DNA from: an uncultured Clostridia bacterium | Lineage (GTDB): Bacteria; Bacillota; Clostridia; Peptostreptococcales; Anaerovoracaceae | Direction: 5' to 3' | DNA: 35,278 bases | NCBI GenBank assembly: GCA_945876935.1 | Contig: CAMCQA010000005.1 | Coordinates: forward strand, 1 to 35,278 | Position numbers and translations under genes: made by a program | Shown here: in pieces, positions 18,533 to 21,832 of the stretch | Layout: every line of letters starts with the position of its first letter | Position numbering within the stretch: the stretch's first letter is position 1 | The notes under the pieces: model-generated | What the model was told of the DNA's origin: nothing | Seen by the model: the letters and a program-made list of their open reading frames with translations, nothing else | Database searches by the model: none

Positions 18533-18562
18533 TTGACATTAAGTATAAAGATAGTGTATCAT
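18533..18562 (+). promoter_or_regulatory. Promoter of the riboswitch-controlled surface-protein gene
   Basis: A perfect TTGACA (18533-18538), 18-base spacer and TATCAT (18557-18562). The transcript would begin near 18569 and carry a leader of about 300 bases. Confidence 0.7.
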
Positions 18563-18589
18563 TTTTAGTATAGACAAACTAATACAAGG

Positions 18590-18775
18590 AGAATTGCGTT
18601 TCTCTTACTATACTTATGTAGAGACAAAGATGGAAACAGGTTAAAATCCTGTACGGTCCTGCCACTGTGATTGGTTGGTAATATATTACCTCTGAAAAAA
18701 TAGGAGTAGTTTATTGCTATGTACCATAAGTCAGGAAACATGCGCAGCTCATATTTTAAGGCGAGGATCTTATAT
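18590..18775 (+). ncRNA. Cobalamin (B12) riboswitch
   Basis: The conserved core is visible: GGAAACAGG..AAAATCCTG..ACGGTCCT followed by the B12 box GCCACTG (18661-18667) and TGTGA, then AGTCAGGAAACATGC (18729-18743). These are the consensus blocks of adenosylcobalamin-class leaders. Ends are approximate. It lies between a strong promoter and an intrinsic terminator directly before the 960-residue surface-protein gene, so bound cobalamin should cause early termination and repress that gene. Confidence 0.93.
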
Positions 18776-18797
18776 AAAATAACTAACAACGTTGATA

Positions 18798-18835
18798 ATG
18801 CGGGCAGAATTTTTCTGTCTGCATTTTTTATTTTA
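18798..18835 (+). terminator. Riboswitch expression-platform terminator
   Basis: An 11-bp stem (18799-18809 with 18813-18823, one G-U pair) with TTT loop is followed by TTTTTTATTTT. It is located 33 bases before the ATG at 18868, so it must be bypassed for expression. This fits transcriptional control by the riboswitch. Confidence 0.88.
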
Positions 18836-18867
18836 AGTTAATATAGATTTGTTGAGAAAGGATTAAG

Positions 18868-21750
18868 ATGAAATTAAAGAAATTTTCTAAAAGTTTTGCA
18901 GCATGCCTATCGGCATTTTGTTTAGTTTCAGGTTCGATGAGCATACCAAATTCATACGGGGCAGAAGAAGCTGGAATTGTAACGAGATCAACTGTGGACG
19001 GATTTGGCTATGATGTAGTGCTGGAAGTTCTGGTAAATGAAGATGGAACTATAAAGGAAGTTAAAGATGCAGGAACTGAACCAGGCACATCAAATAAGAC
19101 TTTCTGGAGAACATTTTTAGAAGGAAATGGTCTGAAAAACTTTACTGGTAAGTCTAAATCAAATATTGATCAAGTAGATGCAGTTACTGATGCTACTGTA
19201 ACTAGCAAGGCTGCTAAGAATGCTGTTAAGCAAGCTTTGGCGAATGTAGATTATAAACCTGAAGAGCCAAGTGCACCAGCAGAGAAATACCCAAGACTAA
19301 CTCCAGGTGTAAAAAAAGGTGAGGCTGCTATTCCAGGTGAGTCATCTTCAAGAAAAATGAAAGTCATCGTAACTGTTGGAGAAGATGGAAGAATTTCAAA
19401 AGTAGAAAATAACGGCAGCTCTGTTTCTTTCTCAAAGAAGCAACAGTTAAAAGATTATTGGGGCAAATTTAAGGGAAGCAATTACTTTGTAGGAAAAACA
19501 CTAAAAGAAGTAATTGAAATGGATGTGCACAGTGGATATGGTGCTCACGTTCCAGGTAGCAGAGGTGAAGACTCTCCTTATGCACCACTTTCTTTAGGAG
19601 CTAGAAATGCAGTATTAAATGCTTTAGGATACGACTACACTATGAAGGAAAGCGATACAGATAAAGTAATTAATGTGGTATCAATCCTTAACAGATATAA
19701 CTATGAGCAAAGATTTGACGTAAGAATAAGTAAAGAAGGTAAAGTTGTATCGATAGTTGATAAGGGTACTGATGAAGAGAGCAATTATAAAACTTCAGAT
19801 AACTTACATAGAATTAAACTTTTTAATAAAGGTAAGGGATACGATAAGTACATAGGAAAGACTCTCTCTGAAGTAAAAGCTATGGATACTGGTAAACATG
19901 GTATAGACGGTGTAGCCGGAGCGACATATAATGCTACAGCAGTAAAAAGTGGGGTTATTAGCGCTTTTGAAAAAGGTGGTTTTGATACAAATGTAGAAGC
20001 CGCTCCGATTGGTGGAAGAATGTTCAAAGCCTCATCAACATCAGCCTATGATAATACTGGTAAGAAAATTAAAATAAGGGCTTACATAGATAATGACAAT
20101 AGAATCATCAAGGTATTAGATGATGGGAGCAATCCAGGAGAATCCCCTTGGACAGGTCTTCATCATGAAGATGATGCTTGGGATAAGTTTGCTAAGTACA
20201 GAGGATTTGCAAAGTTTAATGGAAAGAGTCTAGATGAAGTAAATGCTATGAATATGTCTAGTCCTGATAGTATAGATGTAGCGGGAAGACAAATTCAGGT
20301 ATCAGCTGCAGCTAAAGAAGCAGTAATCGCTGCTATCAATATGGCTATGTCTCATCCGATAGTAGATAAGGAAGCGTTAAAATCTGAAATTTCTAAGGCT
20401 AAAGAGTTCTTGAAAACAGTAGTAGAAGGAGAAGAGCCAGGTCAGTACCCATTAGGAACAATGGCAAAGCTACAGGCTAAGATAGGTCTTGCAGAGAAGC
20501 AGGTTAATAATGATATTGCATCAGAGGACGAAGTTAATACTGCTAAAAATGAGCTAAAAGCAGAAGTTGAAATGGCTAAGCAGTCAGTTATAAAAGTAAA
20601 TAAAGATGAATTGAAAGAAGCAATTTCAAAGGCAAAAGAGTTCTTGAAAACAGTAGTAGAAGGAGAAGAGCCAGGTCAGTACCCAGAAGGAACTACAGCA
20701 AAGCTACAAGAAAAAATTGATTTGGCAGAAACTCAGGCTAATAGTGAAATGGCATCAAAAGAAGATGTTGCATCAGCGAAGGCTCAGCTTGATGAAGCAG
20801 TTGAAATGGCTAAGCAGTCAGTGATAAAAGTAAATAAAGATGAATTGAAAGAAGCAATTTCAAAGGCAAAAGAGTTCTTGAAAACAGTAGTAGAAGGAGA
20901 AGAGCCAGGTCAGTACCCAGAAGGAACTACAGCAAAGCTACAAGAAAAAATTGATTTGGCAGAAACTCAGGCTAATAGTGAAATGGCATCAAAAGAAGAT
21001 GTTGCATTAGCGAAGGCTCAGCTTGATGAAGCAGTTGAAATGATTAAAGAAACAGTTGTTAAACCACTAATGGAAAGAGAGCTTAAATCGATAGAACATA
21101 AAGTGTCTGTAAAAGCTATGATGTCTGAAAAAGCGGAGCTTATGGTTAAAAATATTAATCTGGAAATTGATTCTTTAACTCTAGATAAGGCTTTAAAAGA
21201 AGATGGAAGGATATCAAAGGTAATTGGCACATACGATATTTCCATTATCAATGGTAAATATAAAGAGCCTATAGTTGTTTCATTTAATCTGGGTAACGAT
21301 GCTAATGGTAAGAAGATGGTTATTAAGCATGTGAAGCATGATGGCCAAGTAGAGTCTAAGGATACAGTTGTTGAGAATGGAACAGTTAGTATAACTGTAG
21401 ATTCTTTGTCTCCTTTTGCTGTTTCTGAGTTTACAGAAACTACAGAGCCAGATACACCGGCACCAGATCCAGATCCAGAGACTCCGGTAGAAGATCCGGT
21501 TCCAGCACCGAATAATCCTGATGTTGTAGATACAGATGTGGCAAATAACAATGATTCAAATATGGATATGTCAGATGATAATAATAAGGTTGAACCAAAT
21601 TCAAACAAAGTAATAAAGCCTATAGAAAAATCGAAAGAGTCTAAAAACACACCTAAAACCGCAGATAATAGAGATTTAGCAGTTGTTATGACTATTATGT
21701 TAATATCAGCAACTGTGGCAGTATTATTTAGAAGAAAGTTTAATAAATAA
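18868..21750 (+). CDS. B12-riboswitch-controlled wall-anchored protein with FMN_bind-like and FIVAR-like repeats
   Basis: A 960-residue exported protein. A signal peptide (1-32, SYGA end) is followed by four FMN_bind-like units at about 38-125, 150-255, 265-368 and 385-495. The flavinylation-type motif is partly kept in unit 1 (DAVTDATVTS, 104-113) and unit 3 (DGVAGATYNAT, 347-357). It is degenerate in units 2 and 4, so covalent FMN is uncertain. Three FIVAR-like repeats of 78 residues cover 501-734. A beta-rich domain (about 735-855), an Asp/Pro-rich linker (856-890) and a sorting signal (NTPKTAD 927-933, hydrophobic stretch, RRKFNK) finish the protein. The riboswitch implies expression when cobalamin is scarce. 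A role in corrinoid capture, reduction or adhesion is inference; no family name can be given. Confidence 0.88.
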   Translation: MKLKKFSKSFAACLSAFCLVSGSMSIPNSYGAEEAGIVTRSTVDGFGYDVVLEVLVNEDGTIKEVKDAGTEPGTSNKTFWRTFLEGNGLKNFTGKSKSNIDQVDAVTDATVTSKAAKNAVKQALANVDYKPEEPSAPAEKYPRLTPGVKKGEAAIPGESSSRKMKVIVTVGEDGRISKVENNGSSVSFSKKQQLKDYWGKFKGSNYFVGKTLKEVIEMDVHSGYGAHVPGSRGEDSPYAPLSLGARNAVLNALGYDYTMKESDTDKVINVVSILNRYNYEQRFDVRISKEGKVVSIVDKGTDEESNYKTSDNLHRIKLFNKGKGYDKYIGKTLSEVKAMDTGKHGIDGVAGATYNATAVKSGVISAFEKGGFDTNVEAAPIGGRMFKASSTSAYDNTGKKIKIRAYIDNDNRIIKVLDDGSNPGESPWTGLHHEDDAWDKFAKYRGFAKFNGKSLDEVNAMNMSSPDSIDVAGRQIQVSAAAKEAVIAAINMAMSHPIVDKEALKSEISKAKEFLKTVVEGEEPGQYPLGTMAKLQAKIGLAEKQVNNDIASEDEVNTAKNELKAEVEMAKQSVIKVNKDELKEAISKAKEFLKTVVEGEEPGQYPEGTTAKLQEKIDLAETQANSEMASKEDVASAKAQLDEAVEMAKQSVIKVNKDELKEAISKAKEFLKTVVEGEEPGQYPEGTTAKLQEKIDLAETQANSEMASKEDVALAKAQLDEAVEMIKETVVKPLMERELKSIEHKVSVKAMMSEKAELMVKNINLEIDSLTLDKALKEDGRISKVIGTYDISIINGKYKEPIVVSFNLGNDANGKKMVIKHVKHDGQVESKDTVVENGTVSITVDSLSPFAVSEFTETTEPDTPAPDPDPETPVEDPVPAPNNPDVVDTDVANNNDSNMDMSDDNNKVEPNSNKVIKPIEKSKESKNTPKTADNRDLAVVMTIMLISATVAVLFRRKFNK
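20368..21069 (+). repeat. Three tandem 234-bp coding repeats (FIVAR-like, 78 residues each)
   Basis: Units span 20368-20601, 20602-20835 and 20836-21069. Units 2 and 3 differ at a single base (TCA/TTA, Ser to Leu) over their first 207 bases, whereas unit 1 is clearly diverged. The pattern indicates a recent in-frame duplication of unit 2. Confidence 0.92.
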
Positions 21751-21801: not shown

Positions 21802-21832
21802 AAAAATGACTTGGTTTTACCAAGTCATTTTT
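21802..21832. terminator. Bidirectional terminator between the surface-protein gene and the SEC-C gene
   Basis: A 13-bp stem, AAAAATGACTTGG (21802-21814) with its complement at 21820-21832 and a 5-base loop, gives T runs on both strands. It serves the plus-strand gene ending at 21750 and the minus-strand gene ending at 21845. Confidence 0.9.

Follow-up and report, generated by a model that had tools for sequence, protein, structure and literature searches.

A cobalamin riboswitch precedes a gene for an exported protein with FMN_bind-fold units in an uncultured Clostridia bacterium: a possible surface factor for corrinoid acquisition

The window analyzed here is a stretch of 35,278 nucleotides, contig C5 of the genome of an uncultured Clostridia bacterium of the family Anaerovoracaceae (genome G000; 1.29 Mb in 67 contigs). 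It carries a cobalamin riboswitch followed by a single gene for an exported protein of 960 residues that is predicted to contain four FMN_bind-fold units. Control of this protein by vitamin B12 (cobalamin) status is well supported by the sequence of the leader. We tentatively favor the reading that the protein is a B12-starvation-induced surface redox factor acting on corrinoids for their acquisition, which we regard as possible rather than probable. The broader proposition, that it serves corrinoid acquisition by either a redox or a plain capture route, is fairly probable. The parts of the locus are as follows, with the four units named U1 to U4.

18533 to 18562, plus strand: sigma-70-type promoter, TTGACA-18-TATCAT, 11 of 12 consensus positions (consensus match only)
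18579 to 18761, plus strand: cobalamin riboswitch aptamer, RF00174, 67.0 bits, E 1.2e-14, model positions 1-189 covered in full
18797 to 18825, plus strand: intrinsic terminator and expression platform, 13 pairs, then a T tract
18868 to 21750, plus strand: exported surface protein, 960 residues
18868 to 18963, plus strand: signal peptide, residues 1-32, read off the sequence
18979 to 19248, plus strand: FMN_bind unit U1, residues 38-127, site DAVTDAT (Pfam; profile, 104.5 bits; structural model)
19315 to 19635, plus strand: FMN_bind-like unit U2, residues 150-256, acceptor Thr lost (profile, 5e-7; alignment)
19672 to 19977, plus strand: FMN_bind unit U3, residues 269-370, site DGVAGAT (profile, 6e-17)
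20032 to 20346, plus strand: FMN_bind-like unit U4, residues 389-493, acceptor Thr lost (profile, 3e-9)
20359 to 21060, plus strand: three FIVAR-like repeats (two stretches by Pfam FIVAR, the third by eye)
21085 to 21477, plus strand: C-terminal stalk domain, residues ~740-870, 32% identity to surface proteins on contigs C2 and C38 (both)
21645 to 21747, plus strand: sortase-like tail, TPKTADN, membrane helix and RRKFNK, by eye
21802 to 21832, plus strand: bidirectional terminator past the gene

In a covariance-model search, the leader scored well above the gathering score of RF00174 (67.0 versus 31.5 bits), and the terminator hairpin was recovered when the leader was folded. Two terminator-like sites were found in the leader (0.2 expected by chance), one of which is the upstream gene's own. 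Because the gene is followed by a bidirectional terminator and the next gene downstream is convergent, riboswitch control should extend to this one gene. A preliminary description, made from the sequence letters, had named a complete cobalamin riboswitch with its terminator driving one gene only, and both points held.

The exported protein is, as judged from its sequence, built of four FMN_bind-fold units, clear in U1 and U3 and divergent in U2 and U4. Pfam assigned FMN_bind (PF04205) to two stretches (54.5 bits; cutoff, 22). We also used a profile of seven related units, which included U1, making the U1 score circular, and excluded U2 to U4; since U2, U3, and U4 were matched by a profile built without them, all four units appear to be real, in agreement with the preliminary description. 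An AlphaFold2 model of U1 from a 6-row alignment reached a predicted local distance difference test (pLDDT) score of 91.2. Compared with solved structures using VIA-align, this model was closest to domain 2 of SaFMN3 (8p2a; Z 10.3; 2.2 Å; 84 residues), followed by CbFMN4 domain 1 (8p2b; Z 10.1) and RnfG (Z 9.6), while the unrelated IscU group scored lower (Z ~7.5). An IscU-type fold had stood near the top by Foldseek alone (no match below 1e-3) and was rejected, given that VIA-align ranked FMN_bind domains first. Modeling of residues 31-500 from the single sequence was poor (pLDDT 41), and only its strand-helix pattern was used. The FMN_bind fold named in the preliminary description is therefore borne out.

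The remainder of the protein was resolved unevenly. Pfam scored FIVAR in two stretches (29.8 bits; cutoff, 29.2), and the third of the three copies described earlier was recognized from sequence repetition, with no Pfam score. The sortase-type tail is visible by eye as a motif, a helix, and a basic end, but it is degenerate (TPKTADN has TA where TG is usual), and Pfam matched no wall-anchor domain in the protein. As had been noted, no DUF4430/SLBB, BtuF/Peripla_BP, or ABC domain was matched by Pfam across the 960 residues; the same was true of NEAT and Shr-like HID domains.

No full-length homologue was found in 350 genomes of the family or by a pattern scan of genome contigs, and a scan with a three-unit alignment returned only a protein of the Eubacterium infirmum heme operon. 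Outside the genus of the window, however, cobalamin riboswitches precede FMN_bind genes in three genera of this family (g5, g12, and g20), and in three genomes they lead flavin operons. In G312 (g20; L234, 3913-3732, minus strand), a riboswitch of 95.2 bits with a 12/12 promoter and a terminator stands before genes for an FMN_bind x4 plus Big_2 protein, a further FMN_bind protein, a Fer4_5 membrane protein, and ApbE. The riboswitch of G073 (g5; L232/L240, 394-4778; 78.6 bits), also with promoter and terminator, is followed by FMN_bind x3 plus Big_2, Fer4_5, and ApbE-like genes. That of G007 (g5; L189, 2852-7920; 32.0 bits, E 1.7e-5), with a terminator, leads genes for a Shr-HID/FIVAR/fn3 surface protein, an FMN_bind x2 protein, an FMN_bind protein, and Fer4_5. 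ApbE is thus present in two of these three flavin electron-export modules (G312 and G073). Taken as a set, the three operons are perhaps more striking than the gene of the 960-residue protein itself. Wall-type FMN_bind proteins were also found behind such elements: in G080 (g5), a riboswitch of 84.6 bits precedes an FMN_bind x2 gene with two frameshifts in the assembly, and in the sister genus g12 a compact cobalamin-type element, its core and terminator conserved between both species, lies before the genes of G159 (25.2 bits, E 1.9e-4, below gathering) and of E. infirmum (G014; 19.1 bits, E 0.56). Another candidate, a riboswitch 7 kb from a flavin module in G071, was assigned instead to an ABC transport operon.

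Assuming ~5 riboswitches per genome and ~1000 transcription units, we roughly estimated that ~0.1 pairs of riboswitch and Fer4_5 module would be expected by chance among ~20 modules, some of them clipped by contig ends, compared to the three seen. These operons lend support to the idea of extracellular flavin-type reduction, which for the 960-residue protein itself is a proposal. Given the potential of cobalamin, flavins at -184 mV could reduce its cob(III) form to cob(II). We favor a redox role on two grounds: this chemistry and the presence of the switch in front of complete flavin export modules. Flavins of the SaFMN3 type have been placed at -184 mV (PMC10339131), and an FMN_bind domain has been proposed to supply electrons to corrinoid dehalogenases (PMC5928378).

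Several observations weigh against a redox role. ApbE requires the motif D-x-x-[ST]-G-A-[ST] (PMC12052999), which was found in its exact form in none of the four units. U1 (DAVTDAT, Asp in place of Gly) and U3 (DGVAGAT, Ala in place of Ser/Thr) are each one step off, and U2 and U4 lack the acceptor threonine. Neither ApbE nor an electron-transfer partner is encoded in the operon of the 960-residue protein. Across the family, only 3 of the ~20 Fer4_5 modules examined carry the riboswitch, and the complete modules could serve electron disposal rather than corrinoid handling. The earlier proposal of a surface flavin-type corrinoid factor is therefore sustained in part, by the riboswitch, the regulon, and the riboswitch-led flavin operons, and weakened by the motif count and by the loss of the acceptor in two units. 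Since the motif deviates in U1 and U3 and the acceptor is lost in U2 and U4, we left the protein out of the multi-flavinylated class; from the sequence, a load of two flavins or fewer per protein is plausible at most.

Electron disposal leads to a different account of the locus, in which B12 shortage would slow the fermentation steps that depend on B12 (ornithine aminomutase) and extracellular flavin transfer would dispose of the reductant, with the wall protein as outer relay. The complete flavin export operons behind the riboswitches of G312, G073, and G007 speak for this account, as does an OraE-like gene in the window genome. However, the multi-FMN gene on contig C9 of the same genome has no riboswitch, the 960-residue protein is encoded singly and has decayed acceptor sites, and the first product of the G007 operon, a surface protein of the Shr-HID/FIVAR type, suggests ligand handling. 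We consider an electron sink unlikely.

Ligand handling is also suggested by the nearest FMN_bind relatives, which otherwise belong to a heme-uptake operon. In G014 and G159, related units are fused to NEAT-like repeats (read by eye, with no Pfam match), and the operon that encodes them also encodes Shp (157 bits), a Peripla_BP_2 protein, a permease, and an ATPase. At two loci (L051, 6110-12450; L114, 3972-10791), a wall protein with FMN_bind x2 and NEAT-like parts shares an operon with Shp and an iron/heme-type ABC importer. Because the riboswitch-linked unit of G080 is sister to the Shp-operon units (support 99/96), sequence relationships point to tetrapyrrole handling as the common theme of related FMN_bind units. 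The FMN_bind fold may accordingly have been recruited to bind a corrinoid or another tetrapyrrole without redox chemistry and to pass it to BtuF, as NEAT does with heme. The fusion to NEAT-like repeats near Shp and a heme-type importer agrees with such capture, as do the sites of the protein itself, with U2 and U4 not flavinylatable and U1 and U3 deviant. So too do the nine units nearest U1 (from three genera), in all of which the Gly of the motif is replaced, against ~65 canonical sites among the ~93 FMN_bind units tabulated. A single clade of these nine was unsupported by the tree but was not rejected by the approximately unbiased test (P = 0.228), so the Gly-less motif is treated as a tendency rather than a clade trait. 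On the other side, corrinoid binding is, to our knowledge, established for no FMN_bind domain, the site of U1 retains its Asp, Ala, and Thr, and substitution of Asn, Asp, His, or Ser for Gly may be structurally mild. Moreover, a Gly-to-Ala change in the motif retained ~50% flavinylation in one tested protein (PMC12052999). With the flavin sites decayed, plain capture is also possible, and is nearly as likely as the redox role.

In this family, B12 riboswitches largely govern the surface proteome, and the premise of the preliminary description that they usually control import, synthesis, or isoenzymes proved too narrow. In E. infirmum, ~11 of some 15 cobalamin riboswitches precede large surface proteins (sub-gathering elements counted), and in G014 and G159 most riboswitches lead surface types such as DUF4430 plus GLUG, toroid plus CWB2, DUF4430, and LRR. 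At loci L116, L117, L119, L120, and L122-L127 of E. infirmum, ~10 riboswitches each stand before the gene of a large surface protein, of the LPXTG type or with CWB2, that contains DUF4430, GLUG, LRR, toroid, or NEAT-like modules. One riboswitch-controlled operon (L118, 2053-2691, G014; also in G159) encodes a 213-residue exported protein that matches NEAT weakly. Its gene is flanked by a cbiD-like gene and by that of a CbiK-like lipoprotein, and the protein has a possible part in handling cobalt or a tetrapyrrole intermediate at the surface. Transcobalamin-like SLBB/DUF4430 surface proteins with FIVAR, toroid, and propeller fusions were predicted to scavenge B12 in 2007 (Burroughs 2007, PMC1796856); the FMN_bind branch under riboswitch control appears undescribed there. 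In the open-access literature searched, no paper linked cobalamin riboswitches to FMN_bind, ApbE, or LPXTG flavin proteins. So many large surface proteins under the same control could mean that the 960-residue protein is an adhesin or wall-structure protein, induced in B12 shortage for attachment to B12-rich partners or host, with FMN_bind units that are structural only. FIVAR repeats, a stalk domain, and an LPXTG-like tail are usual adhesin parts. A structural role would nevertheless leave unexplained both the link of riboswitch-controlled FMN_bind genes to redox partners and the link of the nearest relatives to heme operons, and we regard it as quite improbable.

Across the window genome, nine cobalamin-clan riboswitches were found in all. 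One precedes btuFCD-type genes (contig C52). Another (C39) stands before an exported GLUG surface protein, its reading frame interrupted by the contig end, with 40% identity over 258 residues to a riboswitch-controlled GLUG plus DUF4430 protein of E. infirmum. A third (C38; L015, 324-8808, minus strand) leads a MoxR-DUF58-transglutaminase-DUF4430-PQQ surface operon that is also riboswitch-led in the congener G001 (L115, 6273-16457). A corrinoid-acquisition role for the 960-residue protein fits this remaining regulon. Three riboswitches with terminators (L001, 1501-1681; L005, 1501-1630, minus strand; L009, 1478-1610, minus strand) have no codirected gene near (or mreB ~430 bases on) and seem to be orphan switches or regulatory RNAs. 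MetH-like and OraE-like (aminomutase) genes indicate that the organism needs cobalamin. Possible partners comprise a class B sortase-like gene, an extracytosolic FMN_bind x3 gene on C9, and an ApbE-like gene adjoining rnf genes on C49 (L047, 7938-8588, clipped by the contig end), which scored 70 bits, under the cutoff of the ApbE model. A paralogue on C2 (L045, 4217-6709, minus strand), an 830-residue FMN_bind surface protein without a riboswitch, diverges from genes resembling part of a D-ornithine aminomutase cluster. The ADFYYGE-type domain of this paralogue recurs in the protein after ApbE in G312.

Under the favored redox reading, low cobalamin would let transcription pass the terminator, as in the usual OFF-switch architecture. 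The protein would be exported and probably anchored to the wall by the class B sortase, with the FIVAR repeats and stalk spacing the four units off the wall. U1 and U3 might then carry flavin mononucleotide (FMN) attached by the ApbE of C49 and receive electrons from the C9 protein or Rnf. Cob(III)alamin would be reduced to its cob(II) form, whose looser ligation would help carriers to release it and BtuFCD to take it over. A family-wide version, in which a B12-starvation-induced extracellular flavin system (Fer4_5, multi-FMN relays, and wall FMN_bind proteins) reduces surface corrinoids for uptake, is doubtful at present. The proposal connects riboswitch-controlled B12 acquisition with flavin-based extracytosolic electron transfer. 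If true, it would give a testable job to multi-flavin surface proteins, whose functions were termed enigmatic in a 2025 review (PMC12052999), and would suggest that monoderm corrinoid scavenging includes a redox step.

Among known systems, the multi-flavinylated proteins SaFMN3 and CbFMN4 (PF04205) share tandem exported FMN_bind units, and the U1 model matches both structures (8p2a and 8p2b); the 960-residue protein differs in lacking the exact motif and in having FIVAR repeats, a wall-type tail, and a cobalamin riboswitch. The SLBB/DUF4430 surface proteins of Firmicutes (PMC1796856) are likewise exported, often wall anchored, and fused to FIVAR, with members in the same riboswitch regulon, whereas our protein has no DUF4430/SLBB domain. 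Heme-uptake surface proteins (NEAT, Shp, and HtsABC-type importers) include the G014 and G159 versions with related FMN_bind units; here, in contrast, there is neither a NEAT/Shr-HID match nor an importer in the operon. Bacteroides BtuH and BtuJ and other surface B12-binding lipoproteins (PMC8941943, PMC12751083) are also cobalamin-riboswitch surface proteins, of various folds, but they are diderm lipoproteins from families other than FMN_bind. Finally, PceC/RdhC of reductive dehalogenase operons (PMC5928378) also has an FMN_bind domain, through which electrons have been proposed to reach a corrinoid, but it is a membrane subunit serving a corrinoid enzyme rather than a wall protein.

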